64,000 nt of DNA from Flavobacterium sp. N502540 (GTDB lineage: Bacteria; Bacteroidota; Bacteroidia; Flavobacteriales; Flavobacteriaceae). The position numbers were made by a program, and so were the translations under genes. The DNA is taken from assembly GCF_025947365.1 (NCBI RefSeq), contig NZ_CP110012.1, forward strand, positions 3,906,001 to 3,970,000, read 5' to 3'. Of the stretch, positions 1,761 to 18,898 are shown piece by piece (the stretch's first letter is position 1; every line of letters starts with the position of its first letter). Under the pieces are notes generated by a model. That model made no database searches. It saw only the letters and a list, made by a program, of their open reading frames with translations, and was not told the origin of the DNA.

Positions 1761-2180
1761 ATGAAAAGAGGTCTTCCATTAAAAGAAACATCCCCTGTGA
1801 AGATGTTCATTTTTGCTTTTATGTTTATAATTAGTATTTATTTTTTATATACTATGTTAAAGGTATTTCAACCTAGAATTTATGGAGACAGAATAAATGC
1901 TTTGGTAATAAATGTTGATAGTATTAAATCTCATAAAAACAACAATACGTACCGATATTTTGGCAAAATAAAATTTAAAAATAAAGAAGGCAATGGAATT
2001 ATTGAAGATTATGGTTTTAGCAGTAAATTAAAAAAGAATGATTGTTTACAGCTTTATTATGACCAAAAATACGGTTTCTATGATTCCGAAGATCAAAATG
2101 TTTACTTTGTACTTATAACAATTCCTGCTATAATTTTAATAATACTTAGTGTTTTCTTTTATAAATATTTTATTGATTGA
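1761..2180 (+). CDS. DUF3592-like membrane protein
   Basis: A 139-residue protein with a transmembrane helix near residues 13-33, a soluble middle (about 45-110) and a second helix near 112-135. The middle part, with an NVDSIKSHKNN turn, a KIKFKNKEGNG strand and a DCLQLYYDQKYG strand, resembles the beta-rich extracytoplasmic segment of DUF3592-type two-helix proteins. This is recognition by pattern only. It is the last of the same-strand membrane genes at the left end. Confidence 0.5.
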   Translation: MKRGLPLKETSPVKMFIFAFMFIISIYFLYTMLKVFQPRIYGDRINALVINVDSIKSHKNNNTYRYFGKIKFKNKEGNGIIEDYGFSSKLKKNDCLQLYYDQKYGFYDSEDQNVYFVLITIPAIILIILSVFFYKYFID

Positions 2181-2262
2181 AACAGAAGATTCGATTGCGG
2201 ACTATCTGAAATCTATAATCGAAAGAGGAAATTAGTTTTTGATTGGAAAATTTTAAACAAAG

Positions 2263-2370
2263 TTATACAACCTGTAATAATGCTGCAAAAATTCCAATAT
2301 GCGTAATGCTGATACGTTGATCTTTTTCTATTGCTTTGAAGAATTGGGTTAAAGGATTTAGCTGATCCAT
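2263..2370 (-). pseudogene. 5' fragment of a small mobile-element-associated gene
   Basis: From ATG at 2370 the minus strand encodes 35 residues starting MDQLNPLTQFF and containing SITHIGIFAALLQ, then hits a stop. The block ITHIG-F-AALLQ recurs in the fragment at 3121-3435, which carries the rest of the family but lacks the start. The family is a short protein of about 110-120 residues that I recall from flavobacterial accessory DNA, with no established role. The abrupt end right after the shared block suggests truncation or recombination. Confidence 0.45.
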
Positions 2371-2455
2371 TACTCTTGTTATTTAGATTTTTATTCCACT
2401 GTCATAAAAATGAATTTTAATGATTGTTATTTAATTGCGTTTTTTTCTGAAACGG

Positions 2456-2508
2456 CGCCAATACGGCTTATTTAGGCCTGCTTTGTGCAGGCAGTAAGCT
2501 TGTTGGCG
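2456..2508. repeat. Nested three-stem hairpin
   Basis: Three nested perfect inverted repeats: CGCCAA (2456-2461) with TTGGCG (2503-2508), GCTTA (2466-2470) with TAAGC (2495-2499), and GCCTGC (2476-2481) with GCAGGC (2487-2492) around a TTTGT loop. Together they form one long imperfect stem of about 53 nt. It could be the core of a small non-autonomous element, a recombination site or an RNA hairpin. No T-tract follows, so it is not a typical terminator. Confidence 0.45.
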
Positions 2509-2696
2509 AATATAACAATGATATAGTGAATCTCTTATTTGTGCACCAATAGGCTTTGAATCAGTTGTTTTTCTTTTCCTCATGCTGTTTTATTATAGCT
2601 TAGAATCAGCTGATTTAGTTTTAGACCTGGATGAATCCCGTATCAGGAACTGCCGGGGGAAACTACTTTGAAGTGGTCATCATGGTCAATTATATA

Positions 2697-2800
2697 GTAT
2701 TATTTTTTTTAGGTTTGATATTGTTTTTTTGGAGCTGGTCCCACTGTATCTTACACCGGAGCGTTAGCGAACTGCCTGGGCAATCTTTTGTTGCCGGAAT
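2697..2800 (+). repeat. Interspersed repeat, degenerate copy 1
   Basis: Begins with TTTAGGTTTGATATTG and GGAGCT, as copy 3 does, then diverges, keeping only scattered matches such as GCAATCTTTTG. It is the most decayed of three copies in this decayed 1.8-kb stretch. Confidence 0.4.
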
Positions 2801-2848
2801 CTAATTCATAGTGATCATCTTTGTGAGTTGTATATAGTGCTGTTTTTT

Positions 2849-2954
2849 AGGAGCTTTTTCCCGCTATACGTTGCAATCTTTTGTGCCTAACCCCGGCACA
2901 AAAGGATTTTCACTGCACACGAGCGAAGCGAATTGGCGAAGCAATCGGGGCTAG
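2849..2954 (+). repeat. Interspersed repeat, copy 2
   Basis: Starts AGGAGCTTTTTCCCGCTAT and continues through GTTGCAATCTTTTG and CCCCGGCACAAAAGGATTT to ATCGGGGCTA. About 60 bases match copy 3 (3443-3553) with few differences. An insertion (around CACACGAGCGAAGCGAATT) separates the last two blocks. No coding capacity; I believe repeats of this type recur in flavobacterial genomes. Confidence 0.55.
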
Positions 2955-3120
2955 TAATATATGGAAAAAAAGGCGTCAATTGTCTTGAATTGGCGACTTT
3001 TGGTGAATTCGACGGGACAAATTTCTATACATTTTTATTGAAGATTTTAAGAGAGTGGCCTACTACATGTAGTATTAAAAACAGCTTTACTATACTTTTA
3101 TTGAGAATTTTAAAAAACTC

Positions 3121-3435
3121 TTAAACGATGAAATAAATTATGCTCTTCTGATTTCTATTTCTCTTTGGAAGATAATTTTTATAACCGTAATCATTTAGGT
3201 CTCTGATACATCTATGGTAGGTAACAGGGCCGCTTATTTTAGCTATCTTCATAATTTCATGCCTGTATGCTTTAATAGGATTCGTATAACCTGCGGCAGT
3301 TCTGAATTGTAATAATGCCGCAAAAACTCCAATATGGGTAATCTTGGCGGGCTGTCCTTTATCAGATGTAAAGCGGACAGGGGCGGTTTTTTTTACAGTA
3401 TAAGGATCTGTGTTTATAGAACAGCGGTCAGGTGA
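3121..3435 (-). pseudogene. 5'-truncated copy of the small gene family
   Basis: An open frame of 104 codons on the minus strand, bounded upstream by an in-frame TGA (3436-3438) and lacking any ATG near its start. It encodes VRFTSDKGQPAKITHIGVF, then AALLQFRTAAGY and later HEIMKIAKISGPVTYHRC and DLNDYGY. The ITHIG block matches the 2263-2370 fragment, so both belong to one family: one keeps the 5' end, the other the 3' part. The TYH-C---LN-YGY region looks like a small winged-helix or helix-turn-helix fold, which is inference. Probably not expressed. Confidence 0.5.
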
Positions 3436-3442
3436 TCAGGGG

Positions 3443-3553
3443 GTATATTATTTTAGGTTTGATATTATTTTTCAGGAGCTTTTTCCCGCTATGCGTTGCA
3501 ATCTTTTGCGCCGAACCCCGGCACAAAAGGATTTCCACTTCTATCGGGGCTAA
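3443..3553 (+). repeat. Interspersed repeat, copy 3
   Basis: Carries TTTAGGTTTGATATTATTT, AGGAGCTTTTTCCCGCTAT, GTTGCAATCTTTTGCG, CCCCGGCACAAAAGGATTT and TATCGGGGCTAA in order. It is the most complete of three copies and lies just upstream (in minus-strand terms) of the truncated gene at 3121-3435. Confidence 0.55.
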
Positions 3554-4010
3554 GGACTCTGAGGAGCCCTGTTTTGTCTGGGACAACTATCTGTCAGTCC
3601 TCTCTTATTTTGTCACGGTGGTTTTTACCCCACTCAATCATTTCGGAGATCATATTGTGCAGTGTATCGCAGTACACAGAAGCTGTGTACAAATACAATG
3701 AAGTATGCCAGCCGTTAATCCGTTTCTGCGTTACAGACGGCACTTTTGTCGATATTTGAAAATTACGCAGTGTAAACCTGAATATCTTGGCAATAAATAA
3801 GTAATGCCAACAAGTGCATATGCTGGTATATATATTCATATTCTGGATCAGGATGATGAATATCATAGCAATACCTTTGAAACTGTTGCAGATCATATAA
3901 CTGCATTTATTAATTCGAAAAATCTTTATGATACTGTTTTCATAAAGGAATAGATGTTTGCCAATACTTTTGGATTTGAAAAAGTAATATAAAGGAAACA
4001 GTATTTTTTT
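3554..4010. other. Intergenic region without a convincing gene
   Basis: Short frames overlap on both strands. The best are a 49-codon frame at 3804-3953 (+, MPTSAYAGIYIHILDQ...) and the C-terminal part of a minus-strand frame at 3594-3896 (WHTSLYLYTASVYC). Neither matches a family I know, and both look like remnants. The downstream gene ends at 4011 on the minus strand, so its terminator should lie here, but no strong GC-rich hairpin is seen. Confidence 0.4.
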
Positions 4011-6887
4011 CTAATTGTTCTTATTCTTTGCTTTTATAAGTATTTTTTTTAATTTGGCGCTATTCTCAGTTTCTCCCTTAAAATCTGAAATGCAGATTAG
4101 TATCTCTACCACTGCTGTAAACATTTTTCCTTCCTTTATTTTGAGACGATGAATTATATTTACTGCCCATACAGCAGCTTTTTCGGCAGTTTCAATTTCA
4201 CGATCCATTAAATGGCAGTAAGCCAGATCGCAGAGATAAATAACTAGAGTAAGGTCATTCCTGCTTTCGTCGGGTAGTTCCTGATGGGCATTTACAGCCA
4301 TTGAAAATTTTTTCCTTGCCTCTGAAAAATCTCCATAATTCTTGTAAGCAGTTCCCAATAGGTGACACTGGATGGGAAAGGTTACATCATACCATAGATC
4401 ATATATTTTTCTTAAATCCATCAGCTCCTGAAATGAATCTTTGAAACCTTTTAGATCATCAAGATGAAGATAGAGATAAGCTTTGTTGCATATCATATTG
4501 AGAAGATGTGATGCATGCGCACTTCCTTTAGCAGATTTAAAAATAGTTATGGATTTATTGAAGTACTCAGAAGCTTCATCTTTCCTTCCAATACCAGCAA
4601 GTGTTAATGCATAGTTATGAAAAATAGTTCCAAGATTGAAATCTTCGGGGTTTAGTTTTGCAGAGGCTCTGACGGCAAGATCTTCCCATTTATTAATTAG
4701 ATTTTCAGGATTCTGCAGCCAGTTTTGAACATTCAGAACTTCATTTTCTAAAATCAGCATTGGCTGGTAAATTGGCTCTCTAAAATCTTCCTTTATTTTT
4801 CTTAGCACTGATTGGCCGTACTGAGCAAAACGAACTGCTTGAGCTGGGTCGCCTTGGGCGCCCTCCTGAATTCGTGCTCTAAGGAAAGGGATGTGGAACA
4901 TCTGGGAAAGAAAAGCCCCCTTGTCTTTACGCAGCTGGTATAGAACGGACTCCTGAAATACCATGTCCATTTTTATATTATTTCCTGTTCTTGTAATCAG
5001 CCCTTTTTTATGAAGTAAATTTATTGCCTTTGTAAATTCAATTTTGTTGTTTTTTTCATAGTCTTTACCGTAGAGAAGCACAATATCCTGCATAGTGATC
5101 CCTCCAGCAGGAAGCAATGCGAAGAACTCCATATAATAACGTTCATCCTGGTTCAGTGAACTTATCGAAAAAGTTTTTTCAAGAATAGAAAGTAGATTGA
5201 CGTTTAAATCTCCAACTTCAATGTCTACTTCTATCTCCTTATCGTCTAGTTTTTGCTCCTGAAGATATTCCAAAAATGTTTTTAAGGTGAGGTCAAAGCT
5301 AAGGTGTATAGTTTTAGCCGCCAGTATAATGACTAAGGTATTATATTCTATAAATTCGAAAAAAGCCCTAAATGTATCTTCGTCAGAATTTCTTGTAGGC
5401 TCAAAAGTACGGTAAAGCAGGCAGGCATTATCAAACGATAAATGATGCGTCTGCTGTAATTTTCCTATGTCCGTGCGTAGACGTGAAGTAATTATAATAT
5501 GCCAGTTATAAAGGCTTTTTAAATTACTTATATTCTCCTTATCCTCACAGACTAAATCATTTATGATCAATAATCCATTTCCCTGTATATTATTGAGTTT
5601 CTGAATAATCTCGTTCAGTTCGCTTCGAGTTGTGCCCAAAGTGCTTATGGACAGATTGCGCATTAGGTTGTCATTAAGAATGAAGCCGTCGAATATTCCA
5701 GTCTCTGCATCTAACCAGATTAAATGGTCATATTCATTACGAAAAACCGATATATATAAACTGGCAAGCGTGGTTTTTCCTATTCCTCCAACACCAGAAA
5801 GGTTTATGAGTTTGTTTTTTTTCAAGTTCTCTTTAAGAATGTCAAGCTCATCTTCTCTTCCAATTATATCTGAAGGGATAACATATGGAATTAAAGTTAG
5901 GTCTTTGGGAAATGTTACAGGCTGCTTTTTCTCATATTCCTCTATTAATGAATTTAACTGCGAGGAATGTTTTGTTAGCAGGTTATTATGCAATACTGTA
6001 GTTTCTTCAATCTTTTCGACTTTTTTTTTCAGACTAAAAAATCGTACATCAAGAAGTTTTAGAAGAGAATTATTGACCATGCTCTTAATTTGATCTTCCT
6101 TTTTAGCAATAATTGAGACCATTAAAGAATTATCTACTTTCCTGCTTTCGCTGTCTTCCAGTTGTGAGCAGCGGCAGATTTCAGAAAGCAGGGCTTCTAA
6201 CATAATCACGGGTGGATGACCTTCAAATTTTTCATGTTTCAAATCTTCTAAAACGCTATTATGAAGTGTAATAATACTTTCAGCAGGTGTTTCTTCTGCA
6301 AAAAACCATTGTATGCTCTTCATAAAATTATCCATCAAATCATCATTTTCCAGCGTTGATAGAAGTGTTGTAAAACTTAATTTTATTTCCAGTTTTTCTT
6401 TTTCGTCTTTTGTTTTGTCTTCGAGTTTTTTCTTGCGTAAAGCTTTGAGTTCTTTTTTTAAAATCTCCTTTATTTTTTTTCGGCACTGTATGAGCAGCGG
6501 ACTTTTAATCAAAGGTTGAGCTTTTATCCATGCCGCTAGTAGAGTTTCGTTTTTAGTCAGCGAAGTATTGGTAAAAAAATGGAACTCCAGCTCTGGGTTG
6601 CTTTCTTTTTCCTCGAGATACTGTACAAAAAATGTAAAAAGCTCTTTTTTGAGAATAGGGCTTTGAAGACTGAATGGCGCTTTATAACTTTTGACCTGAG
6701 TATAAACTAGTTTTTCGCCTACCTCTTTAATGTCGTTTCCAACTTCAGTTGAAACCACCGTGTCATTACCGTTGATATAATGATTTACCCATTTATGAAG
6801 TACAGTCAAGTACTGATAGTAAAAACCTCTGCTCACATAATAAGCATCATGGTTGGTTTTAATGAGGTTAATGAGCTTTTGTTCCAT
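4011..6887 (-). CDS. STAND (NB-ARC) ATPase with N-terminal Cap4-like nuclease and C-terminal TPR-like repeats
   Basis: A 958-residue protein. Residues 14-68 (RGFYYQYL, then E48, D52 and Q64-x-K66) fit the Cap4/DUF4297-type dsDNA endonuclease of the PD-(D/E)xK fold. Residues 140-170 are Lys/Glu-rich. The NB-ARC core has Walker A GVGGIGKT at 365-372, Walker B LLIINDL at about 439-445 and an IIITSR sensor at 464-469. A winged-helix-like region follows (about 600-670), then helical TPR-type repeats from about 690 to the end. The layout nuclease-STAND-repeats is that of antiviral STAND proteins, which oligomerise on sensing phage proteins and unleash the effector; that role is inferred here. It lies 67 bases downstream of the DUF4365-like gene on the same strand, implying an operon. 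At under 1000 residues it is much shorter than typical Avs proteins. Confidence 0.8.
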   Translation of the reverse strand: MEQKLINLIKTNHDAYYVSRGFYYQYLTVLHKWVNHYINGNDTVVSTEVGNDIKEVGEKLVYTQVKSYKAPFSLQSPILKKELFTFFVQYLEEKESNPELEFHFFTNTSLTKNETLLAAWIKAQPLIKSPLLIQCRKKIKEILKKELKALRKKKLEDKTKDEKEKLEIKLSFTTLLSTLENDDLMDNFMKSIQWFFAEETPAESIITLHNSVLEDLKHEKFEGHPPVIMLEALLSEICRCSQLEDSESRKVDNSLMVSIIAKKEDQIKSMVNNSLLKLLDVRFFSLKKKVEKIEETTVLHNNLLTKHSSQLNSLIEEYEKKQPVTFPKDLTLIPYVIPSDIIGREDELDILKENLKKNKLINLSGVGGIGKTTLASLYISVFRNEYDHLIWLDAETGIFDGFILNDNLMRNLSISTLGTTRSELNEIIQKLNNIQGNGLLIINDLVCEDKENISNLKSLYNWHIIITSRLRTDIGKLQQTHHLSFDNACLLYRTFEPTRNSDEDTFRAFFEFIEYNTLVIILAAKTIHLSFDLTLKTFLEYLQEQKLDDKEIEVDIEVGDLNVNLLSILEKTFSISSLNQDERYYMEFFALLPAGGITMQDIVLLYGKDYEKNNKIEFTKAINLLHKKGLITRTGNNIKMDMVFQESVLYQLRKDKGAFLSQMFHIPFLRARIQEGAQGDPAQAVRFAQYGQSVLRKIKEDFREPIYQPMLILENEVLNVQNWLQNPENLINKWEDLAVRASAKLNPEDFNLGTIFHNYALTLAGIGRKDEASEYFNKSITIFKSAKGSAHASHLLNMICNKAYLYLHLDDLKGFKDSFQELMDLRKIYDLWYDVTFPIQCHLLGTAYKNYGDFSEARKKFSMAVNAHQELPDESRNDLTLVIYLCDLAYCHLMDREIETAEKAAVWAVNIIHRLKIKEGKMFTAVVEILICISDFKGETENSAKLKKILIKAKNKNN

Positions 6888-6954
6888 AAAAATAGAATGC
6901 CTGTAAGAAGTTTGTGAATTTTTAGTTTTTGGGATGATTTATTTAAAACTTCTT

Positions 6955-9600
6955 TTAATTTGCGAAGTACTGAAAATAGATATTTAGAATATTCTTGTTT
7001 GACGAGGTGTTTATTTTTTTTCTTATTTCCAATTTAAGCGCATCCGAGCTTGCCAGTCTCTCCAGCACAATATTGGATCGATTTTCTATGAGCCAGCTCA
7101 AATCAAAAGGATTTCCCTGCCTGTAATTTTCAATCTCTAGGAGAAATTTATAATAAGGGTGCACCTTTTTTATCGCGGATAATGTTTTTTTATCAACTGC
7201 CTTTTCCCCAACGGCATAAATAATCTCTACAAGGTTGCCTAATCTTGAAGCAATGTAACTGCTTAGTCCTGTTACGGTGCTTGTCTGTTCCAGAAACACT
7301 GGGTTTTTACGATTTATTATTGCATTAATTTTATCGCTGCATACCTTAGTAAATTCTAAATAATTATTCAGGCATGCACAGATTATTGCTTCATGATAAA
7401 GTTCAAAATTGAATTCAGTAGTAAGGGAACTATTTATTCTCAGCTTTAATTTTTCTAGTTCAGAGGGTCTCAAAATCTTAGAAAATGCCCTTAATGTCTG
7501 AAAATGCGGGGCATCAATAATTATTTCAGTAATTTGGTCAATAATTTCCTGGTTATTTTTTTCAATAAAGCATTTTTTATCCCTTAACGCAAAAAGACAG
7601 TTTGTTAGCAGGTATCCTTTATGATCATTTTTGGCTAAAATTATCCCAATAAGCTCCAGTAGATCAGCAGAGCTGAAGAAAGATGCCTTTTGAAATATGG
7701 GATGCGCCAAAAAGGAATATTCGTCAAGTGATAAATCTAGTTCTTTAACAAATTTTATAATTTTACCAGCAAGATGTTCATGAAAATCGGTTTCTACATG
7801 AGATAAAACAATGCATATATTGTTAAAAATTCTAACCGTTTTTCTTCTGAGATCATAGTTTTTAATTTTCCCTTCTACAGCGCTGATTTCATTTTTAAGA
7901 TAAGCTATATTTTTATCAGAAAAAAAGTTCAAAAGCGCACTAGGAAAATAATTGTTATTTTCACTAATATATGGGACATCATAAACATTGTTTCTTTGAA
8001 AATAGGTTATGAGTTTCTGAGGGTCACAATATAGAAGTATTAGTTCTATGATAAAATCGTCAAAACTGTTGAGGTGTCTCCTATAGCTGCATCTCATTGA
8101 ATAGGAAATTATACAGCTTTCAATATGCTTCTCGAAAAGCTGATCAAATTCTTCAGTAAGTAAAAATCTGTTGCCTCTGTAAAAATTAAGACATTCAATA
8201 ATCTTAATCCTTTGACTATTGATAAGATCAAATGTAGAGTTATTAACCTGCCTTTGCTGATAATCTTTTATTTTGAGATAATTATTGTCAATCTGATTTA
8301 AATAGCTGTTGAGCATTGTATGTTCAGATACAAATTTCAAGATCTCTTTTTTTTCAGCCGGAATATCCAGCTTTAACAATTCGAAATAAAGGTTAGCAGA
8401 ATTTTGTTCTGGAATATATTGGCTGACTATGTTTAGGTTATATCTGCAGATAAAAGAAAGTACAAATTCTTTATTAGAAACAGCATCTTCGTGTGCTTGG
8501 TTAAAAAGAATTCTTGCCTGGCCGTATTTTCCCATACTGAAGAGTGAAAAAGCATTTTGAATCAGATCCCAGCCGTTCTCTGAATCTTTTTTAAATGCAG
8601 AGCTGGCAGATTCGCAGAAATTAAGGGATCTGTAATGACAAATAGAGCATCCGCACGGCTTTGTTTGTTTGAGCTTAATGTCTATTTTATTGGTACCTGC
8701 CTCTAATACAGTTATATTGCCTTCATTTAATGTCTTTACGATATGATTAATTTTTTCTATAACATTCGATACTCCGTTGAAATAGCTTATATTCTTAATC
8801 CCAACAGTTTTTGCTATTTTGATATTTGAAAAGAAATCGATTATCTGCTGGTTATTGGTTCGAAGAGCAAAATTGTGATAATAAGTATGTGTATTAATTT
8901 TGTCGTAAAATGAAACTTTTTCACCCAGTCTCCATCCATGTACCCTGCGAAAGTCATTATAAGTATTTAGTACAATATAAAGTTTATCAACAATATGCTT
9001 ACCTTTTAGTGATTTAAAAAGGTCATTATTGGAATACTGCTGTTCATTTATTGGATTTACCCATTTTTCAGTTATGCGTCGGATAAATTCCTCATTACGA
9101 AATTCTTCTGTACGGCTGATTTCATTCCTTATTACCTGATTAATCTTATGGCTTGGAATATTTTTATATTTTAGAAATTTTCTTTTGCTTGAAAGCCTGA
9201 AGATATAGTAATCCTTATCAGAATCAGTACGCAATGTAAAATTTTGCTGTATCTCTCTGGCAGTAAAGAAATATACATGTTCATTCCTGTTGATATCGTC
9301 AGTATGAATTAGCGCGAAAAAATCGGTTTTAACACCTTCTGTGTCTTCAACGTAATGTCTGGCAATTTTAACCTCATTGCTGTTTTCGAAATATTTAGCC
9401 TGAACAATGCCTTTACATGTGATTCTTTTTTTTGACTCCTGAATCTCAATCAAACTAGAAGGCATCTCTTCTACGGTAAAGTCCCTGCCCTCAATATCAA
9501 CAGATATTGTAGATACTAAAAAATCTTTTGCAAGAATAGCAGCGGTTCTCTGTTCTCCTAGATGACCATTAAATCCCTGTTTGTTTAATATATTATGCAT
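6955..9600 (-). CDS. DUF4365-like nuclease-domain protein with large helical C-terminus
   Basis: An 881-residue protein. The N-terminus shows GE (15-16), D35-x2-EGRD40 and Q67-A-K69 in the order expected for DUF4365-type PD-(D/E)xK nucleases. Residues 100-140 complete an alpha/beta domain (YFFTAREI). A Cys cluster CGCSIC (316-321, with C329 nearby) could bind zinc. The rest, from about 335, is helical and TPR-like (NAFSLFSMGKYGQARILF). It is the promoter-proximal gene of a pair with the STAND ATPase downstream. The arrangement suggests a two-component defence system in which both partners carry a nuclease fold. The pairing is my inference; I do not recognise a named system. Confidence 0.7.
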   Translation of the reverse strand: MHNILNKQGFNGHLGEQRTAAILAKDFLVSTISVDIEGRDFTVEEMPSSLIEIQESKKRITCKGIVQAKYFENSNEVKIARHYVEDTEGVKTDFFALIHTDDINRNEHVYFFTAREIQQNFTLRTDSDKDYYIFRLSSKRKFLKYKNIPSHKINQVIRNEISRTEEFRNEEFIRRITEKWVNPINEQQYSNNDLFKSLKGKHIVDKLYIVLNTYNDFRRVHGWRLGEKVSFYDKINTHTYYHNFALRTNNQQIIDFFSNIKIAKTVGIKNISYFNGVSNVIEKINHIVKTLNEGNITVLEAGTNKIDIKLKQTKPCGCSICHYRSLNFCESASSAFKKDSENGWDLIQNAFSLFSMGKYGQARILFNQAHEDAVSNKEFVLSFICRYNLNIVSQYIPEQNSANLYFELLKLDIPAEKKEILKFVSEHTMLNSYLNQIDNNYLKIKDYQQRQVNNSTFDLINSQRIKIIECLNFYRGNRFLLTEEFDQLFEKHIESCIISYSMRCSYRRHLNSFDDFIIELILLYCDPQKLITYFQRNNVYDVPYISENNNYFPSALLNFFSDKNIAYLKNEISAVEGKIKNYDLRRKTVRIFNNICIVLSHVETDFHEHLAGKIIKFVKELDLSLDEYSFLAHPIFQKASFFSSADLLELIGIILAKNDHKGYLLTNCLFALRDKKCFIEKNNQEIIDQITEIIIDAPHFQTLRAFSKILRPSELEKLKLRINSSLTTEFNFELYHEAIICACLNNYLEFTKVCSDKINAIINRKNPVFLEQTSTVTGLSSYIASRLGNLVEIIYAVGEKAVDKKTLSAIKKVHPYYKFLLEIENYRQGNPFDLSWLIENRSNIVLERLASSDALKLEIRKKINTSSNKNILNIYFQYFAN

Positions 9601-9748
9601 TGGATATGTCTTTGATTTTGTAAAAAAAATCTTTGATTGCTAAGATATTAAATTATAATATAGTTTTAAATTTAAAGGAATGCGTTTCTGAAATTTATAC
9701 AGATCAATGTTTATATATCTTCTAAAATCATTAAGATAGAAAGACTTT

Positions 9749-9925
9749 TTATAGATTATTAATGCTTCCTTCCATTTTCTGGCGTGGTAGGTTAATCTCA
9801 TGTTCCTGAGGATAAGGAGCACGGTGGGTGAGACTGATATCTTCACGAAGTTGTTCATGAACATTATATTTTCTGTAATTGCTATTAGAATATCGAGGAT
9901 CTTCAATAAAAGGCATCTTTTCCAT
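9749..9925 (-). CDS. Possible small protein upstream of the nuclease/STAND operon
   Basis: From ATG at 9925 the minus strand encodes 58 residues (MEKMPFIEDPRYSNSNY...), hydrophilic and Arg/Glu-rich, ending MEGSINNL. A longer overlapping frame (9640-9906) is less protein-like at its N-terminus. The gene would sit about 150 bases upstream of the 881-residue protein on the same strand. It may be a remnant or a short leader gene. No family was recognised. Confidence 0.25.
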   Translation of the reverse strand: MEKMPFIEDPRYSNSNYRKYNVHEQLREDISLTHRAPYPQEHEINLPRQKMEGSINNL

Positions 9926-10127
9926 TTTTATGGTAGTAATAGTCGGGAAGTGGCCATTTGGTTATGACGACCTCGATTAGACCAATCCTTATAACTATCC
10001 GTTTTTAGGCATAATTTGATTAAATAAATAGAATATTTATAACTGCGCAAAAACACTGCGTACTAAAGAAGTATTTTTGATCAATATTTAAATACAAACA
10101 AATTACAGCAACATAATTTCTTCTATA

Positions 10128-10975
10128 ATGAAAACAAAACATTCTCTTGACGATTTAAAGCGATTCCATAATGAAGCCATAAATTTTTTTGCAGCAGAAC
10201 TTATGCTTTTGAAGGAAATAGTAACTAAAATTGAAGATGATCGACTAGGTAAATGTTCAGTTTTATTAATAAGCTGCGGACAAACAGGAGCGGCTCTTCT
10301 TCAGTTGGCAAATCAAATTGACTCCTTTGCAAGTGAATCTGTAATGCTTTCTCGTGCATTTATGGAAAAACAACAAATTTTTGTTATGCAGGTATTTGTG
10401 ATGAAGAAGAGTTTCGGGCATTTGTTTTGCATCCTATTTATAAAAAGTATCACAGCCTTGGTGCTACTAAAATGGAAGATGATTTAGATCTCATCACTGA
10501 AAATGTTATTAGCAGAAAACAAATACAGCAAAAGTTTAAAGAAAACGCTATTGTACAAGAAGCATTAAATATATTTTCTGAAAAAAATTCCCGGTTAAAT
10601 TGGACTAAAAAAACACTAAATCAAAGAATTGATGTTATACAAGAATGGGGGAAATTGATGGATGTATTTTTTACGATCAATAAACTTGAATATTATTCTG
10701 ATGCTTCTGAAGTTCTGCATGGTTCGTTGTATGGTTGCACTTACAACTTAGGTATTTTTGATGATGGTTTTGATAGAAAGATAGAAGGAGAAATGGAAAA
10801 AAAATTATATAAAGATAGTACTTGTATGTTGTTGCATTTAGGAATGTTAATACATGAATCATTTACTCTTATATCATATTCAAATAATATTGAAAAAGAA
10901 TGGAACTACTCGTATAATAATAGAGGACAAGCATTAAATTTATTATTTCATGTGTTAGAAAGAAAGATTAAATAG
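10128..10975 (+). pseudogene. DUF5677-like protein, frameshifted
   Basis: The first frame (ATG 10128) reads naturally to SVMLSRAFMEK, then degenerates. The next frame carries FCYAGICDEEEFRAF and continues to the stop at 10973-10975. Adding one A to the run in ATGGAAAAACAAC (about 10361-10369) restores a 282-residue protein. SRAFMEK-TNFCY, the helical body and Y-ASEVLHGSLYG agree with DUF5677, a helical family often seen in defence islands. The ASEVLHG segment is the usual conserved motif. The break is either recent inactivation or a homopolymer sequencing error, because the downstream part is otherwise undamaged. Confidence 0.6.
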
Positions 10976-11037
10976 AAGACTTAAAAAAGTGATATAAGTT
11001 TTAAAGAAACATTGAAATAAATAATACAAATAGAAAA

Positions 11038-11742
11038 ATGGTAAATAATATAGAAGCAACACGTGAAACTGCAAAATTAGGTCTTCAAACCTTTTTCATG
11101 GATGTTGAGAATAATTTTCACGATAGGATTTCAGATGAAGCAATCAATATTTTTGAAAAGAAAATTCTTGATGCTAACACTAGAGATCGTTCTGATGAGT
11201 ATAAAAGAGGAGACTATTCTGGTCCAACTATGGAGATTTATTTTATGGAGCAGGAGTTGAAAGCAATTTCAGAAATGAAAATTCTTTATGCTTATAAGCA
11301 TTTTGAAAATAAATTAAAATTTTTATTAAGTGCTGCTTACGGTGCCTCGAAATCTAAGATGTTTAAATGGGAATTTGTGTGTGAATTTTTGAGAGAGAAA
11401 AATATTGATATTAAAAATATAAATTGCTATTCAGAGATAAATGAATTACGAAATTTAAGTAATTGTATTAAACATTCTGATAATATTAAAAATGATTCAA
11501 GAATGATGTCAATAACAGAATTTAAAGAAAAGCCAATTGTTCTTTACGCAGACCTTTTAGCTTTTTATAAACGAATTGAAAATGCTCCCTCTTCTTTTAT
11601 ATCTTCTTTATCGGATTTCATATACAAAGACTTATATATGTTTGATGAAAAAAGAATTGATCAGGAAGCAGAAAAAAATGCTCTTAGAATGACTGAAGCC
11701 GAAGCTTCAATTCTAATTAAAAAACTTAAAGAGAAATATTAA
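11038..11742 (+). CDS. Hypothetical protein with HEPN-like R...H motif
   Basis: A 234-residue, mostly helical, charged protein with no signal peptide. Residues 137-147 (LRNLSNCIKHS) resemble the conserved RN-x-x-N-x-x-KH segment of small HEPN-like proteins, with R138 and H146. Spacing is R-x7-H, longer than the canonical R-x4-6-H, so catalysis is uncertain. The DUF4209 gene follows after 50 bases on the same strand, suggesting co-expression. Context among STAND and nuclease genes suggests a defence role, by inference only. Confidence 0.5.
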   Translation: MVNNIEATRETAKLGLQTFFMDVENNFHDRISDEAINIFEKKILDANTRDRSDEYKRGDYSGPTMEIYFMEQELKAISEMKILYAYKHFENKLKFLLSAAYGASKSKMFKWEFVCEFLREKNIDIKNINCYSEINELRNLSNCIKHSDNIKNDSRMMSITEFKEKPIVLYADLLAFYKRIENAPSSFISSLSDFIYKDLYMFDEKRIDQEAEKNALRMTEAEASILIKKLKEKY

Positions 11743-11792
11743 TATTATACTAAAGTAAATTTTATAATTTATTTTAAACTTATACTTATACT

Positions 11793-13487
11793 ATGTTTGA
11801 TACAATCGATGGATATTACGAATTTTTGGAGACTCAAACCCAATTGATTAAAAATAACTTTATTGTTAGTTATATTTCAAAAATGCAAGATCACACAGTT
11901 GATCAAGATCTAAAAACTAAGATGGATTATGAAATTTATTTTGAAAATTTCATTTTGAATCAAAATAATATATCTTTAACAGATAACGCATTTAATTATC
12001 TAAATAAACGGGCGCAAAGTGTTCAAAATACTAGGTTAAAGGCAAAGTATAATCATATGCTTTGGAGCCATAATAAGAATTTGACTTTTGCAAAATTTGC
12101 AATTGATAACTACCTTCTAACACTTCAGAATAGCAGCTTTAAAGTAGATGATAATTTAAACAATCAAGCTTTTGCAGCTCATTATAAAATTTTGTTACTC
12201 TTATCTCAAGATGTAAAGTACAGAAAAGATGAAGTTTTAAAATACTTAATTTCAATTTTCGGCATCGCTAAGATAAATGGTTACCAGGAGAGTGCCTTAA
12301 TGAAATTAGTGGCGAAAGATGGTAAAAGTATTTCAAGAGAAATTTTGGAAACTCTTTACAATTATGCAAATACAATTATCGATAATGATATTTATCCTGA
12401 TTTTGTAAAAGAGTATTTGGAATTGCAAATAGTTTTGGCGCAAAAAATTGGTCAGCAGATTCAAGATTATCAAAATAAGTTAGGAGATTACTATATTAAT
12501 AAGGGTAAAATTAGCGATGGCTTCATAGTTCACGGATATTATCTAAAGGCACTTGAACAATATAAAAAATCTGGGAATACAATCAAATTTGAAGAAGTCT
12601 CTGTCTTACTACAACGAGCTAAATCAAATTTAAATTTTACAAAAACTGAAATTGAAGCAAAAGAAGTGAGTGAGCTTTATGAAAAAATGGAGATTGAAAT
12701 CGATTATCTAATTTCACAACTAAATGCCAGTGAAATTTATAATCATTTAACTCTTTCGACAGATATTTTCCCAAACGCTGAACAATTGGATGAGGAAATT
12801 TTACCAGCAACTTTTGAATTGGTTCATGTCATGGTTTTTGACTCTAATGGTAATCTCAATAATAAGGCTAAGGGAGGCATTTGTCCTTATGCGATTTACA
12901 TTCAAAATTTCTCGCTTACATTTTTACAGTGGATTTTCTATAAAGGAATTAAAAGCAAAAAATTATCGTTTGATTCTCTTTATGATCACTTACTAAAAAA
13001 CACTTGGTATGGCGAGGACAACTCTTATATAAATAATGAAAGAAATTCCGAAACATTTAAATGGCTTGATTTATTAGCTCCATCTTTGCAGAATTTTTTT
13101 TCCCAAATGGAAAGTGATATTGAAATGGGCATTGTAAATAATATTGCCTACCAACTGTCTATTGATTCACTAGCTGTTAAATTTGAAGGCCTATTAAGGG
13201 CGTTTTCAGATAGACTAGAGGCGCAAACAATCGATTTAAAGGATTCTGAAACGCAGGAAAGAATTTCCTTCGAAAAATTTTTAGATAATCCTAAATTTCT
13301 TAATGCCATTCCTCAGGATGATGTGGCACTTTTTAAATATTTATTCACAAACAAAGGAATGAATTTCAGAAATAATGTTGCACACTGTTTTTATAAACCA
13401 AAAAATTACTCAGTAGGAATGATGTGGTTTCTTATCGTGGCAATTTTAAAACTAGGGAACTACGATTTTAAAGCTGTCCAAAATTAA
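11793..13487 (+). CDS. DUF4209-domain protein
   Basis: A 564-residue protein. The N-terminal two thirds are helical, repeat-like and without clear motifs. The C-terminal 180 residues fit DUF4209, whose hallmark is an RNxxxHG-type motif; here RNNVAHC, with R526 and H531 in R-x4-H spacing. That is the geometry of HEPN ribonuclease active sites, although the usual Gly after His is Cys. DUF4209 proteins recur in accessory DNA and function is not established. It follows the HEPN-like gene by 50 bases. Confidence 0.6.
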   Translation: MFDTIDGYYEFLETQTQLIKNNFIVSYISKMQDHTVDQDLKTKMDYEIYFENFILNQNNISLTDNAFNYLNKRAQSVQNTRLKAKYNHMLWSHNKNLTFAKFAIDNYLLTLQNSSFKVDDNLNNQAFAAHYKILLLLSQDVKYRKDEVLKYLISIFGIAKINGYQESALMKLVAKDGKSISREILETLYNYANTIIDNDIYPDFVKEYLELQIVLAQKIGQQIQDYQNKLGDYYINKGKISDGFIVHGYYLKALEQYKKSGNTIKFEEVSVLLQRAKSNLNFTKTEIEAKEVSELYEKMEIEIDYLISQLNASEIYNHLTLSTDIFPNAEQLDEEILPATFELVHVMVFDSNGNLNNKAKGGICPYAIYIQNFSLTFLQWIFYKGIKSKKLSFDSLYDHLLKNTWYGEDNSYINNERNSETFKWLDLLAPSLQNFFSQMESDIEMGIVNNIAYQLSIDSLAVKFEGLLRAFSDRLEAQTIDLKDSETQERISFEKFLDNPKFLNAIPQDDVALFKYLFTNKGMNFRNNVAHCFYKPKNYSVGMMWFLIVAILKLGNYDFKAVQN

Positions 13488-13651
13488 TGAACTTGTCTTA
13501 AGAAATAAGATAGTTTTCTGCATCAGTTGAGTAACAAATAATATTCGAAAAACGGGAGCTGGATGATGAGATATTTATCCATAATTTTTATTTGCATATG
13601 CAAGTAGTTTTTGACATATTTATAAGCATAAAAAACTAAACTATAAAAAGT

Positions 13652-16600
13652 ATGGTAAAAGGCAAAAAGGTTAGTGCAATAAGAAAAGTTGCCACTTCAA
13701 AACAAACAGGAGGTGGAGGTTTTGTCTTTGAAGATAAGACATCCGCGTGGTTTATTTCGCATTTTTTGGCCGACAAATGTCCTTTTGGCCATGATATAGG
13801 GAAGATTAAGAAGATTGGATACCAAATAAGACCGGAAGGATGGTTATTCGACGATTTATTACTGATTACTCAAGATGCTAATGGAGTGATTCATCGTGTA
13901 GCTATCTCTAGTAAAAGTAATATCCAAATAAATACAAAAGGGCCGAATAATGAATTATTGAGGGATATTTGGAATCAATATTTGAATGTTGATTCGGCTG
14001 TTTTTAATAAAGATTCGGATTATCTTTGCATTGCAAATTCAAAGTTGCCACCAGCTATTTCAAAGGATTTAAACACTCTAATCAGATTTTCACAAAGCCA
14101 AGATGCTGCAACACTGCATCGGAGAATAAACCACGCAGACCAAGCATTTTCCCAATCGCTTAAAAAAATATACAAAGGATTTTATTGTCCAGAAGATCTT
14201 AAGAAAGACTTTTCAATCAATGATGAGGAAACTGTAAAGGTCATCAGTAGGCTTTTGTTGCTTGAATTTGATTTTGAGAATGCAGTATCTAATGATGAAA
14301 AACAGATCATTTCTATATGCACAGATTGCTTAACTGCTCCTGATGGTAACCGTGAGCAGCAATTATATAAAAATTTATGTTCTTTCCGTGCAGAGCTGGC
14401 GCCAACATCAGGATATTTAGACTATCAAATATTAATTGATAAACTTAAAAACCATTTTCAATTAAAAGGCTATACAAACCACATTGCTGATTGGAATAAA
14501 ATAATTGCCAAAAGTAAATCCAGAATTGACTCGATCCAAGATAAGATCGGAAATAAAGTAATATTATCTAATTCTGTGGAATTGGACGAAGTTGAAAATT
14601 TATTGAAAGACAACCAAGCAGTCTTTATTTTAGGTAAATCCGGTTACGGTAAATCTGTTTTGGCAAAAAAATATATTCAGCAGAAACTTTCGATACATGA
14701 CAAATATGTTTGGATAGATTCCCAGTCGCTGCAGCAGGGAGGCTTGAATAATTTTTATGGACTTCAAAATGATTTGTCAGATTTGTTAACTAAAGTGCAG
14801 CAAACCGGATATTTATTTATTGACGGTATAGACAGGTTTTTTAAAGAAACTGAATTGAATTTACTTTATCCTATACTTTCCATTGCGGGCAATCCATCAT
14901 CGTGCTGGAAAATTATATTCACATGTCAGACTGATGATTTCAACGATGTGCTGGAAAGGCTTTACAGAATAAATATAACCATAAATTCCGTTACCTATAA
15001 GGTGGATAAAGATGCATTTACTAATGTATCGGCATTAATTACCCATTTTCCAAAATTAGCGGAACTCTTTAAGCACGTGCATTTACGGCCGATTCTGAAC
15101 AACTTAAAATACCTTGATCTATTAGCCTATAATTTAACTCAAAATGCTACCATATCAGAATCTGATTTTATTGGCGAATCCACAATTATTGACTGGATAT
15201 GGAAGGAAGAAATAGAATCGAAAGGTGCAGCAAGCTCAAGATTTGTTAAAGAATTTTCTGAAAAGCAGGCTGAAAATCTTTCTGTCGGAATAGCTTCTTC
15301 AGATTTTGCTATAGCAGATTCGGCACCCATTGATATTCTGAAAGAAAGTAAAATTTTTGTTGAGAATGAAGATAAGCTTTATTTGACGCACGATTTATTT
15401 GGGGATTGGGCAAGGTATAAACTTATAAGGGCAAATAATAATAATGTAAATGGCTATCTGAAGACAAAGGAACTTTTATCAGCCTTGTGGTGCAAGGCGA
15501 TTCGATTATATGGTATTTACCTGCTGGATAAACAAAGTGATGCCTCAGAATGGATTAAGTTATTTAAAACATTGGGCAATGTTGATGCAAAAGAAAAGAT
15601 AATTCAGGATTTACTTCTTGAATCGATTATTTTTTCTGCGTCAACATATACCCATCTATTGGCTCTTTGGAACTTTTTCCAAATTAGTAATGGTGAACTT
15701 CTAAAAAGATTTTTGGAACTTTTTTTAATAAAAGCTACAGTGCCAAATCAGAATGTATTAAAAATGGCAAAAGAGATGGGAGGTTATACCACAGCCCAAG
15801 CGTCTACCTACAACAGGACACCAAACCACTTTTATTGGGGCGAAGTTTTAAAATTTATATATTACTACAAATCTGAAGTTTTAATACTTGCGGGAAGGCA
15901 AGCTGCCGAAATTAGTAAAATCTGGCTTGATTATACACCCAAAAAGTTTCCATACAGACAGGAATGCTCTGAAATAGCTGTCGAAAATGCTAAAAGCATG
16001 TTTGACTTTAAATTCAATGGGGGTTATGTGAGAGGTGATGCTGATGAGCTGATGTATAAGGCAATGCTTTTGGCGGTTAATGAATTCCCTGAAGAGGTTA
16101 TTGACCTATCATTAAAATTATGTAAACGCATTAAAGTTGACAGACAGGAAAAACAGCAGGACTCTGAAAGAAATGATGGACCGCCTTCTATTTTTAGTGG
16201 ATTTAAAATAAGAGATAAGGTTCAATGGCCTGATGGCCCCTATGAAAGGCCAGATAGCGCTTTTGAAAAAATTTGTATTGAAGAAAATGCGCTGAACCCC
16301 ATCATAGATTTATATCCTGTAGCGGCCAAACAGATCTTGCTTGCATTGTTTATCGAAGCTCCTGAAGAAATTTCTTTTGGCTATGACCATAGTTATGATT
16401 TGGATATCAACGTACCGCATGGATGGTTTCCTCCGTTTTACACTAGAGGCCCTTTTTTATATTTTTTAAGAAGCCAACCAAAATATGGGATAGATTTTAT
16501 AGTGACCCTTGTTAATTTTGCAACACAGCAATGGACAAACAAATTTACCTATGAACATAAAGAAATTCCAAAAATCATTATAAATCTTAATTCTACAGAC

Positions 16601-18898
16601 CGCGAATACATAGGGGACTCCAGAGTATATTTTTGGTTTAGAGATTCAACAGGTGTCCCGCACAGTATTGTTTCTGCATTAATGGCTTTGGAAAAATTTC
16701 TTGTTGATCTGATCGATGCACAAAAGCCAATCAGGAATTACATTGAGCTACTTTTGCAAAATGGTAATTCTCTGGCGTATCTGGGAATTTTAATTTCGAT
16801 TGGAAAATATCATCCAGACTTATTTCTGGAAGAATTAAAACCTCTATTGAAAGATTATAGTTTTTATGAATTTGAAAAGTCACTTCACTACGGAGGACAT
16901 GGTGTTGAAGGACATCAAATGACCGGAGCATTTTCTCTGGGAGAGAAGACGTGGAATTTGGCCAAGCAATGGCATGAAATGCCGCATCGAAAAGAATCTA
17001 TTCTACAGGTTTCACATTCTTTGTTTTTACACAATAAAGATCTGCAAGATTACTATGTTCCAATAGTGGAATCATGGACAGCACTGCTGGAGCAAATTGA
17101 GTCAGAGGGATCAACCAATATCTATTTAAACAACCTGATAAAATATTATAATTATAGTAATTATGTTGAATTAGAGCATAAGGGAATCCATTATCTTCAA
17201 TACAAAGAACCTGAAGAATTAACCATTAAATATAAGGAGGCAAGGGAAGGTATAGCTGAAAATAGCGACTTATTCACATTTCCTTTTCAGTGTTACCAGC
17301 AGCTTCAGCAACAAATAAAGCATCTGCCAGAACAATGTGATGAGGTATGGTTAAAAGTCCAGGGTTATTCAAAATTAGATGATGAAGATCCGCATTCTCA
17401 AATGCATGGCAAGCACCAAAACGTATTGGCAGGGTGCGCAATTTTAGCTTCAAATAAAAACTGGTTAATCACTCATCCGGAACAATTAAAATGGATTGTG
17501 ACTTATATTAGCGATGTCATAAACACATTTGCTGCAGACAGGCATGATCGCATCCAGGCTGATTTAGACTTTTCATGGCAGGCATTTGCTGCAAGGATTT
17601 TAGCGTTGCTTTGGACAAATGAGCCGACTAGCAAAATTTTCAGAAGACTACTGGGGGTTTTAATACTTAAATCGTCCTATGCTACTTCAGAGCTTTTATT
17701 CTCTTTGATATCCAAACACTTAAAATGGAATGATGAGGAATTTATTCAAATTCAAAATTTTGCAATTTTATGGAGCTTTGCATTAGATAAAGACAATAGG
17801 AAAAATTATTCTATAGCTACAATGGCAAAAGAACTTAAAGGTTTTAACTTAAATAGATATGCGGAAGAGATTTTAAATGAATTTATTGCTAGCAAAACAA
17901 GCAGAACATTAATCGACTGGTCAAAACTAAGGCCCGCTTTGCCAAAAAGGAATAGGAAAAACCAAGGGTATAATACAGATAGCAGAACTGAAAATGAGCC
18001 CGGAATTGATCTTGAAATGATTAAGCATGTCTTTGGCTCCATTCCAAGGCTTAGCACAATAGATGATAACAAAGAGCGTATTTATGTGCTGTTTTTTTGG
18101 AAACAGATCGTAAATCAAATTATTTTCGAATTGGGAGAAGTCAGTTCGGATTCAAAACTACGCAGGGATTCTCCCACCAGTTTTCATTTTTGGGCTATAG
18201 ACCGTATAACTGAATTTATGACGGAAATTAAAGTTGAAGACAAATTAAAGTCTGAAATTTATTGGAAGCCTATTTTTGATTTTGGATATTCTGCCTCTGG
18301 ACATATCGATTATTTCTGCATGCGATTCTTTACTCTTAACCTTCCAAAAAAAGAAAAGCATAACACCTTTTTTGAAGAATGGCTTAAGATGATTGCGCAT
18401 GCTAATTGCTGCGATACGTGGATTTTAAAAGGAAGACATGACAGAAAGGAAATATGGGAAGCCTTAATGGGGTTGACCGGTACTATTCTTATTTATTGGA
18501 AAAATGAAGATTATTTAGATTTCTTTGCTAGAATTGCTCCGGAAAATATTAAATGGGCGCAAAAGCATGTCGGTGATCAGGATGCTATTTCTAAAATAAT
18601 ACGCATTCTAAAAACAAATGCAGGTCTTACAGTTGTAAAAGACGGACTTGAAATAATAAACCGCTACCTGAGTTTAAGAAGCGAAGTTGATAAAATGGAA
18701 CCTCCTAAAGGTTATGTACGAGTAGATTTTAAATACGAAGATTCATTAGCCACAACAGCAAGTTTTCTCTGGGAGGAACACAAAGAGATGATTAACAGGG
18801 ATGCTGCTATCTTGAAGAATTTTAAAGAAATAGTAACCTTCCTTGTTGCAAGGCAGAATGCTATTGGACTTGAGCTGCAGGGCAACTTACTGATTTAA
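13652..18898 (+). CDS. Avs-like giant STAND ATPase with N-terminal restriction-fold domain
   Basis: A 1748-residue protein. A Gly-rich entry (TGGGGFVFEDK, 19-29) leads to an N-terminal domain with WLFDDLLL (D67, D68) and AISSKSN (S86-x-K88), a plausible variant PD-(D/E)xK nuclease. The STAND core has Walker A GKSGYGKS (328-335) and Walker B YLFIDGID (387-394). About 1200 residues of helical repeats follow. Size and order (nuclease-like effector, STAND, long sensor) match AVAST/Avs proteins, which recognise conserved phage proteins such as terminase or portal through the C-terminus and then degrade DNA. That is known of the family; the ligand here is unknown. No partner gene is needed for Avs2-4 types, and none is obvious here. 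Confidence 0.75.
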   Translation: MVKGKKVSAIRKVATSKQTGGGGFVFEDKTSAWFISHFLADKCPFGHDIGKIKKIGYQIRPEGWLFDDLLLITQDANGVIHRVAISSKSNIQINTKGPNNELLRDIWNQYLNVDSAVFNKDSDYLCIANSKLPPAISKDLNTLIRFSQSQDAATLHRRINHADQAFSQSLKKIYKGFYCPEDLKKDFSINDEETVKVISRLLLLEFDFENAVSNDEKQIISICTDCLTAPDGNREQQLYKNLCSFRAELAPTSGYLDYQILIDKLKNHFQLKGYTNHIADWNKIIAKSKSRIDSIQDKIGNKVILSNSVELDEVENLLKDNQAVFILGKSGYGKSVLAKKYIQQKLSIHDKYVWIDSQSLQQGGLNNFYGLQNDLSDLLTKVQQTGYLFIDGIDRFFKETELNLLYPILSIAGNPSSCWKIIFTCQTDDFNDVLERLYRINITINSVTYKVDKDAFTNVSALITHFPKLAELFKHVHLRPILNNLKYLDLLAYNLTQNATISESDFIGESTIIDWIWKEEIESKGAASSRFVKEFSEKQAENLSVGIASSDFAIADSAPIDILKESKIFVENEDKLYLTHDLFGDWARYKLIRANNNNVNGYLKTKELLSALWCKAIRLYGIYLLDKQSDASEWIKLFKTLGNVDAKEKIIQDLLLESIIFSASTYTHLLALWNFFQISNGELLKRFLELFLIKATVPNQNVLKMAKEMGGYTTAQASTYNRTPNHFYWGEVLKFIYYYKSEVLILAGRQAAEISKIWLDYTPKKFPYRQECSEIAVENAKSMFDFKFNGGYVRGDADELMYKAMLLAVNEFPEEVIDLSLKLCKRIKVDRQEKQQDSERNDGPPSIFSGFKIRDKVQWPDGPYERPDSAFEKICIEENALNPIIDLYPVAAKQILLALFIEAPEEISFGYDHSYDLDINVPHGWFPPFYTRGPFLYFLRSQPKYGIDFIVTLVNFATQQWTNKFTYEHKEIPKIIINLNSTDREYIGDSRVYFWFRDSTGVPHSIVSALMALEKFLVDLIDAQKPIRNYIELLLQNGNSLAYLGILISIGKYHPDLFLEELKPLLKDYSFYEFEKSLHYGGHGVEGHQMTGAFSLGEKTWNLAKQWHEMPHRKESILQVSHSLFLHNKDLQDYYVPIVESWTALLEQIESEGSTNIYLNNLIKYYNYSNYVELEHKGIHYLQYKEPEELTIKYKEAREGIAENSDLFTFPFQCYQQLQQQIKHLPEQCDEVWLKVQGYSKLDDEDPHSQMHGKHQNVLAGCAILASNKNWLITHPEQLKWIVTYISDVINTFAADRHDRIQADLDFSWQAFAARILALLWTNEPTSKIFRRLLGVLILKSSYATSELLFSLISKHLKWNDEEFIQIQNFAILWSFALDKDNRKNYSIATMAKELKGFNLNRYAEEILNEFIASKTSRTLIDWSKLRPALPKRNRKNQGYNTDSRTENEPGIDLEMIKHVFGSIPRLSTIDDNKERIYVLFFWKQIVNQIIFELGEVSSDSKLRRDSPTSFHFWAIDRITEFMTEIKVEDKLKSEIYWKPIFDFGYSASGHIDYFCMRFFTLNLPKKEKHNTFFEEWLKMIAHANCCDTWILKGRHDRKEIWEALMGLTGTILIYWKNEDYLDFFARIAPENIKWAQKHVGDQDAISKIIRILKTNAGLTVVKDGLEIINRYLSLRSEVDKMEPPKGYVRVDFKYEDSLATTASFLWEEHKEMINRDAAILKNFKEIVTFLVARQNAIGLELQGNLLI

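Follow-up and report, generated by a model that had tools for sequence, protein, structure and literature searches.

DSR2 is a sirtuin that drains NAD+ on meeting a phage tail-tube protein, and Garb et al. (2022) is said to be its founding paper. As described in PMC10981675, the tail-tube protein, as a monomer, engages both the closed clamp at the C-terminus of DSR2 and the middle domain of the partnering protomer, and thereby switches on the SIR2 heads of the tetramer. Here we describe a 64,000-nucleotide stretch of Flavobacterium sp. N502540 (the window: bases 3906001-3970000 of the 5.41-Mb single-contig genome), in which two adjacent genes, designated A and B, encode large proteins of 958 and 881 amino acids. 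The main finding is that B is probably a nuclease-armed DSR2-type receptor belonging to a family with several kinds of head; by analogy with DSR2, it would recognize a phage protein and respond by cutting nucleic acid.

Genes A and B lie on the minus strand with B upstream, both start with ATG and they are separated by 67 bases (6888-6954); the shared strand and the gap are as an earlier note on this DNA had read them. The nearest named relatives of both come from Flavobacterium, and since the homologues aligned with them, a few of which are not full-length, share 32-68% identity with the A and B proteins of the window, neither gene is a chance open reading frame (ORF). The note had taken the two for a candidate two-component defence system with B as co-effector or sensor, a reading that passed over the C-terminal ~690 residues of B, which form a DSR2-type sensor. 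Like DSR2 (PDB 8wy8, 8wyb, 8k98 and others), B is a single large protein with an N-terminal effector and a C-terminal sensor; it differs in having a nuclease-like head in place of SIR2, in its identity of 10-13% to DSR2 and in a conserved CxC-x2-C cluster, and a tail-tube trigger is carried over to it by analogy.

The sensor region of B corresponds to the whole helical sensor region of DSR2 at ~299-1005, comprising helix-turn-helix (HTH), helix-bundle, HEAT-repeat and C-terminal domains, the DSR2 boundaries being the published ones (PMC11263360). A profile built from 13 diverse modules of this kind finds DSR2 over profile positions 144-711, with E 1.5e-7 against the full-length protein and 2.9e-9 against the C-terminal construct, and still finds both (5e-4 and 6.8e-7) when the SIR2-armed member is left out. 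When hhalign was run on the sensor parts only, the B family matched a group of SIR2-armed relatives at 6e-52 over 682 columns, these relatives matched DSR2 at 1.6e-10 (96.9%, 576 columns) and the module profile matched DSR2 at 1.1e-14 (98.3%, 573 columns); three controls with the TPR part of gene A gave 0.1-1.3%. With SIR2 included, the SIR2-armed relatives were aligned at 2.1e-39, columns 10-1024 against 9-976, with two DSR2 rows, namely a plasmid-encoded protein of Priestia megaterium (with 52% identity to the DSR2 of B. subtilis) and the C-terminal part of the B. subtilis protein. All five SIR2-armed relatives (L092, L095, L097, L099 and L100) carry the Pfam family SIR2_2 and combine SIR2 with a sensor collinear with that of DSR2. 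At the level of sequence profiles they complete the link from the B family to DSR2.

The sensor module contains the cysteine cluster that the earlier note had pointed out as CGC-x2-C, and its residues C316, C318 and C321 are found in 38, 40 and 39 of the 42 rows of the B-type alignment, respectively. The cluster is invariant in the five SIR2-armed relatives and present in eight of nine rows with other heads. By a rough count along the profile, which is not a residue alignment, it stands a little ahead of the position that matches residue 420 of DSR2, and therefore near the counterpart of strand 403-407, which in DSR2 pairs with the tail-tube protein (PMC11263360).

The N-terminus of B is predicted, from its modelled fold and its conservation, to be a PD-(D/E)XK-like nuclease with an alpha/beta core and the acidic and (E/Q)xK residues of such enzymes. 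The AlphaFold model has a nuclease-like fold over E16, D40, Q67 and K69, the residues named in the note; the last three are each replaced by a gap in one row of the alignment, and E16 is glutamate in 38 of the 42 rows, glutamine in three and a gap in one. The fold of residues ~3-183 is common to the SPARDA nuclease-APAZ proteins and to I-Ssp6803I, a PD-(D/E)XK enzyme, and the locus differs from SPARDA in that none of the seven proteins scanned in 4011-18898 matched APAZ or Argonaute. The label 'DUF4365-like' given to B stands as a likeness of fold and fails as a family assignment, no member of the 42 matching PF14280 at E<=0.01. The candidates MobA_MobL, DUF29 and DUF3475 all stayed below the Pfam thresholds, and B is not DSR2 proper: SIR2 gave no match in B at E<=1 and does not figure among the families found in the 42 members, and the N-terminus of the model folds as a nuclease. 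Scans of B with PADLOC (2023 models), NCBIfam and PHROGs gave nothing convincing. A single-sequence scan of the genome contig collection returned 65 stretches and no relative, the viral contig collection yielded one relative, of the N-terminal part only, and neither plasmids nor phages gave a tblastn match to B.

The sensor module of B is not confined to nuclease heads of one kind. The module profile detected 18 places in 16 of 398 genomes of the genus, genome counts here and below being lower bounds with at most two first-look candidates scored per genome in the profile searches. The heads comprise five SIR2, four MmeI_N-like, three DUF4365, one SMEK, two Mrr-like and one B-type, and two fragments have no readable N-terminus. 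Pfam recognizes SIR2_2 (5/5), MmeI_N (4/4, 27.0-32.4 bits against a cut-off of 27), DUF4365 (3/3) and SMEK (1/1), whereas one Mrr-like head scores 19.5 bits against 21 and the other was assigned by eye. Outside this sample a PIN-like head, seen by eye only, occurs in G206 of the same genus (L086), a DUF4365 head in G277 from another genus of the order (L087) and an MmeI_N head on a Hymenobacter tibetensis plasmid (L103). DUF4365 and SMEK, which have been named for short-Argonaute partners (PMC10810196, abstract), also occur on this sensor module. In a sample of the phylum, 4 of 395 genomes matched the profile. A protein search with the same profile, in which the best 7995 candidates by word sharing were scored, gave 25 proteins of 796-904 residues that are all like B over most of the sensor and carry no listed Pfam domain, so that the diversity of heads rests on the genome and plasmid searches; tblastn of a DUF4365-armed relative against plasmids found no match. 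What is seen in Bacteroidota is a modular family in which one sensor bears about seven kinds of N-terminal effector. Two further arrangements were noted: at L082 two DSR2-type modules stand in tandem (2117-4750 and 4795-7692, 44 bases apart) with Mrr-like and MmeI_N-like heads, and G667 has a second, divergent module (L102 44-1921) whose N-terminus is cut by the contig end.

On a maximum-likelihood tree built from 29 modules (733 columns), the head has to change six times, whether the DSR2 outgroup is left uncounted or counted as SIR2. This is the minimum for seven head types, and head type follows sensor clade (none of 200 shuffles needed as few changes), so that free exchange of heads is rejected. 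SIR2 heads appear at two places in the tree, as if SIR2 were ancestral; the outgroup branch is long and the root and the direction of change are unsure. We lean, by a small measure, towards the broader proposal that DSR2 is one member of a wide receptor class, in which a single tail-tube-sensing scaffold would carry about seven killing heads (SIR2 NADase; B-type, DUF4365, SMEK, MmeI_N-like and Mrr-like nucleases; PIN-like) with the head changing six times or more along the sensor tree, much as STAND and APAZ modules vary in their effectors, and in which the CxC-x2-C cluster of this branch would form a metal-stabilised element in or close to the clamp for the ligand.

As to gene B itself, we consider it likely that the protein is a stand-alone receptor triggered by a phage protein, with a DSR2-type sensor and a PD-(D/E)XK nuclease in the place of the SIR2 NADase head, and that A is separate from it. 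In the mechanism that we infer from DSR2, the HTH, helix-bundle, HEAT and C-terminal region would keep B inactive as a dimer or tetramer. The HEAT and C-terminal domains would clamp a structural protein that the phage makes late in infection, the prior candidate being the tail-tube protein; B would then rearrange, and its nuclease heads would become active, cut DNA (or RNA) and abort the infection. Since B has its own sensor and effector, it would on paper need no ATPase partner. No DSR2-type sensor with a nuclease head appears among the open-licence papers listed in the searches, going by their titles, the openings of their abstracts and how often the terms occurred, most subscription journals lying outside the search.

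Several observations weigh against this interpretation. Besides the low identity to DSR2, the B-family profile alone gives no match to PDB sequences at E<=1 and thus misses DSR2, and hhalign of the B family against DSR2 reaches 55% over the last 166 residues and, with the sensor only, 67% over 72 columns. The match of the module profile to DSR2 carries a bias correction of ~40 bits, more than its score of 31-39, and with the SIR2-armed member removed a designed TPR protein comes next at E 0.008. The cysteine cluster has no counterpart at the same place in the Priestia DSR2 homologue. The comparison is at the level of fold, and a shared sensor fold does not imply the same ligand; moreover, DSR2 tetramers use SIR2-SIR2 contacts (PMC10981675), which B lacks. 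In the head, the putative catalytic E16 gives way to glutamine in 3 of the 42 rows. There is no free shuffling of heads, a single gain fitting each of the non-SIR2 kinds, and four of nine module loci scanned (L010, L074, L077 and L079) have no clear defence neighbour.

The low identity of B to DSR2 and the conservation of the cysteine cluster in B's own branch would also suit a protein that senses some non-virion cue on a DSR2-like scaffold, be it nucleic acid, a phage enzyme, or a redox or metal signal read through CxC-x2-C. We regard this as possible, yet distinctly less probable, because the counterpart region of DSR2 is a protein-binding clamp (PMC10981675; PMC11263360) and because effectors of unrelated kinds sit on the same module, as would suit a sensor dedicated to infection. 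The neighbourhoods bear on another alternative, that B is a restriction-type or DNA-repair nuclease on a helical scaffold and not an infection-triggered effector. Hand-picked neighbours were scanned with Pfam, 14 of module genes at nine loci and five of A genes at four, L002 being left out. In favour of this alternative, the module gene has a methylase gene next to it at three of the nine module loci: Eco57I/TaqI_C at L003, where YhcG also occurs, and at L080, and a cytosine methylase at L073, where there is also a UvrD helicase. As mechanical ORFs the methylase and module genes overlap by 1 base at L003 and 17 bases at L080. The other six loci have no methylase among the neighbours scanned: L004 has an OLD/TOPRIM ATPase, L076 MukB_N and JetD_C below threshold, L077 a subtilase, L010 a hydrolase and an unnamed protein, L079 an unnamed protein and L074 a weak PIN match. 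The same module also carries SIR2 heads, for which we know of no role in restriction, and a restriction or repair function for B is accordingly improbable. The neighbourhoods of the module genes fit single-gene systems in defence islands. The Eco57I/TaqI_C methylase genes overlap the start of module genes with two different heads (897-3959/3959-6604 at L003 and 3001-6723/261-3017 at L080), and a functional coupling there is possible.

The two-component system of A and B proposed in the earlier note is not supported. Homologues of the two genes rarely stand together as far as tested: full-length A occurs in 6 of the 398 genus genomes and full-length B-type in one, and of the six A-bearing genomes only that of the window has a B-type protein or indeed any DSR2-type module. 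Conversely, A is missing from all four loci with a full-length B-type gene elsewhere (L002, L003, L004 and L010), as far as the available DNA reaches, which is at least 1.4 kb on the side where the window has A, and when 14 relatives were searched at the DNA level for the region of both genes, only a 59-base match in one of them came up. These counts (1/6 and 0/4) speak against a conserved pair. The shared strand, the short gap, the order with B first and the defence-like character of both proteins could still reflect an operon acting together whose pairing is young and not yet widespread, to which we give little credence: each protein comes with its own effector, B adding a sensor and A a switch, and none of the five neighbours scanned around A genes at four loci resembles another. 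A stand-alone B, with A as a separate gene, remains the preferred reading.

Both proteins look anti-phage, as had been proposed: B has a nuclease-like N-terminus, and A is a STAND-type defence protein of known kind with a probable nuclease N-terminus. In A the NB-ARC and TPR matches pass the Pfam cut-offs. Walker A reads GVGGIGKT (residues 365-372) and holds up in the family, with G367, G368, G370 and K371 in 17/17 rows; the Walker B proposed beside it does so less well, position 443 being N in nine rows and D in eight, and position 444 D in nine, N in five, I in two and a gap in one. The nuclease residues E48, D52, Q64 and K66 picked out in the note are identical in all 17 rows. Cap4_nuclease (PF14130) is matched at E<=0.01 by most family members (Table 1) and stays below threshold in the A of the window (17.4 against 26.2 bits). 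A structure check of the named residues, favourable for B, leaves the nuclease fold of A unconfirmed because the model (pLDDT 80.7, pTM 0.46) is unreliable exactly there, with pLDDT below 50 at 12-20 and 49-60 and about 55 at 61-70. The Foldseek list of this model is led by a STAND-TPR protein (6mfv) and plant resistosomes or NB-ARC proteins, and helical-repeat proteins also resemble A. A shares the effector-NTPase-repeat layout of Avs and other STAND receptors, and differs from Avs in that its C-terminus is a TPR array; no PADLOC Avs model (2023) matched at E<=0.1. Its best PADLOC match is LmuA of Lamassu (E 1e-6, residues 19-432), and as none of the seven proteins scanned in 4011-18898 gave an LmuB-like (SMC) match, A was not assigned to Lamassu. 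No relatives of A were found in the viral contig collection. A is probably a separate STAND-type system in the same island as B. Since its N-terminal ~260 residues (profile ~1-260) also head six other proteins of 1082-1359 residues at L066-L071 (in five genus genomes: G444, G768 with two, G725, G708 and G529), A, like B, may belong to an effector-exchanging set.

Table 1. Features of genes A and B, with coordinates counted from the first base of the window
Feature	Position	Strand	Evidence
Gene B, 881 aa, nuclease-armed DSR2-type receptor	6955..9600	-	ORF; 42 proteins at E<=0.001 including the window's own; AlphaFold pLDDT 87.3, pTM 0.72
B residues 1-170, predicted PD-(D/E)XK-like nuclease (effector) domain	9091..9600	-	
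B putative catalytic E16 (9553-9555) and D40 (9481-9483)	9481..9555	-	38/42 and 41/42
B putative catalytic Q67-x-K69	9394..9402	-	41/42 each
B residues 192-881, DSR2-type helical sensor module	6958..9027	-	
B CxC-x2-C cluster C316-C321, putative metal site in sensor module	8638..8655	-	38-40/42 B-type rows; 5/5 SIR2-armed relatives; 8/9 rows with other heads
Gene A, 958 aa, Cap4-like nuclease / NB-ARC / TPR STAND protein	4011..6887	-	Pfam NB-ARC and TPR above cut-off; family alignment
A residues 1-260, N-terminal module with Cap4-like nuclease motif (E48..K66 at 6690-6746)	6108..6887	-	PF14130 at E<=0.01 in 13/17
A NB-ARC (Walker A at 5772-5795)	5451..5852	-	26.8 bits against cut-off 23.5; P-loop residues 17/17
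A C-terminal TPR array (~650-958)	4014..4940	-	

Around gene A, an SSB/DUF7222/PcfK/PcfJ block lies within about 4 kb in G688 (L064) and G587 (L065), and relatives of its SSB and PcfJ are found ~22-24 kb to the left of A in the window's genome (L081 1-1503), possibly reflecting a shared mobile element or insertion region. A small HTH regulator of 131-141 amino acids recurs near proteins with the A-type N-terminal module (L063, L066, L068 and L070), at three of these four loci adjoining an unnamed protein of cluster c5. Two Flavo-1 RNAs are located just downstream of gene A on the minus strand (2853-2934 and 3478-3555). On the plus strand, the ORFs of 119 and 182 amino acids at 10128-10975 overlap in different frames and may be one broken gene. 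They are followed by a DUF4209 protein (11793-13487; 31.0 bits against a cut-off of 22.3) that matches the PADLOC candidate PDC-S39 (E 3e-11); another DUF4209 gene is located three genes from the DSR2-type module of the Hymenobacter plasmid (L103 1435-3297). The protein of 1748 amino acids at 13652-18898 (+) matches PADLOC Avs4 (E 2.5e-23), its STAND P-loop being sub-threshold in Pfam, and is a further defence gene of the same region.

The interpretation of B as a nuclease-armed DSR2-type receptor would give a function to large 'hypothetical proteins', the sensor part of which is named by neither Pfam nor the PADLOC 2023 models in our scans, and it also suggests why B would need no ATPase partner. 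If the sensor is exchangeable, sensing and killing would be separate evolutionary units outside the STAND and Argonaute worlds too.
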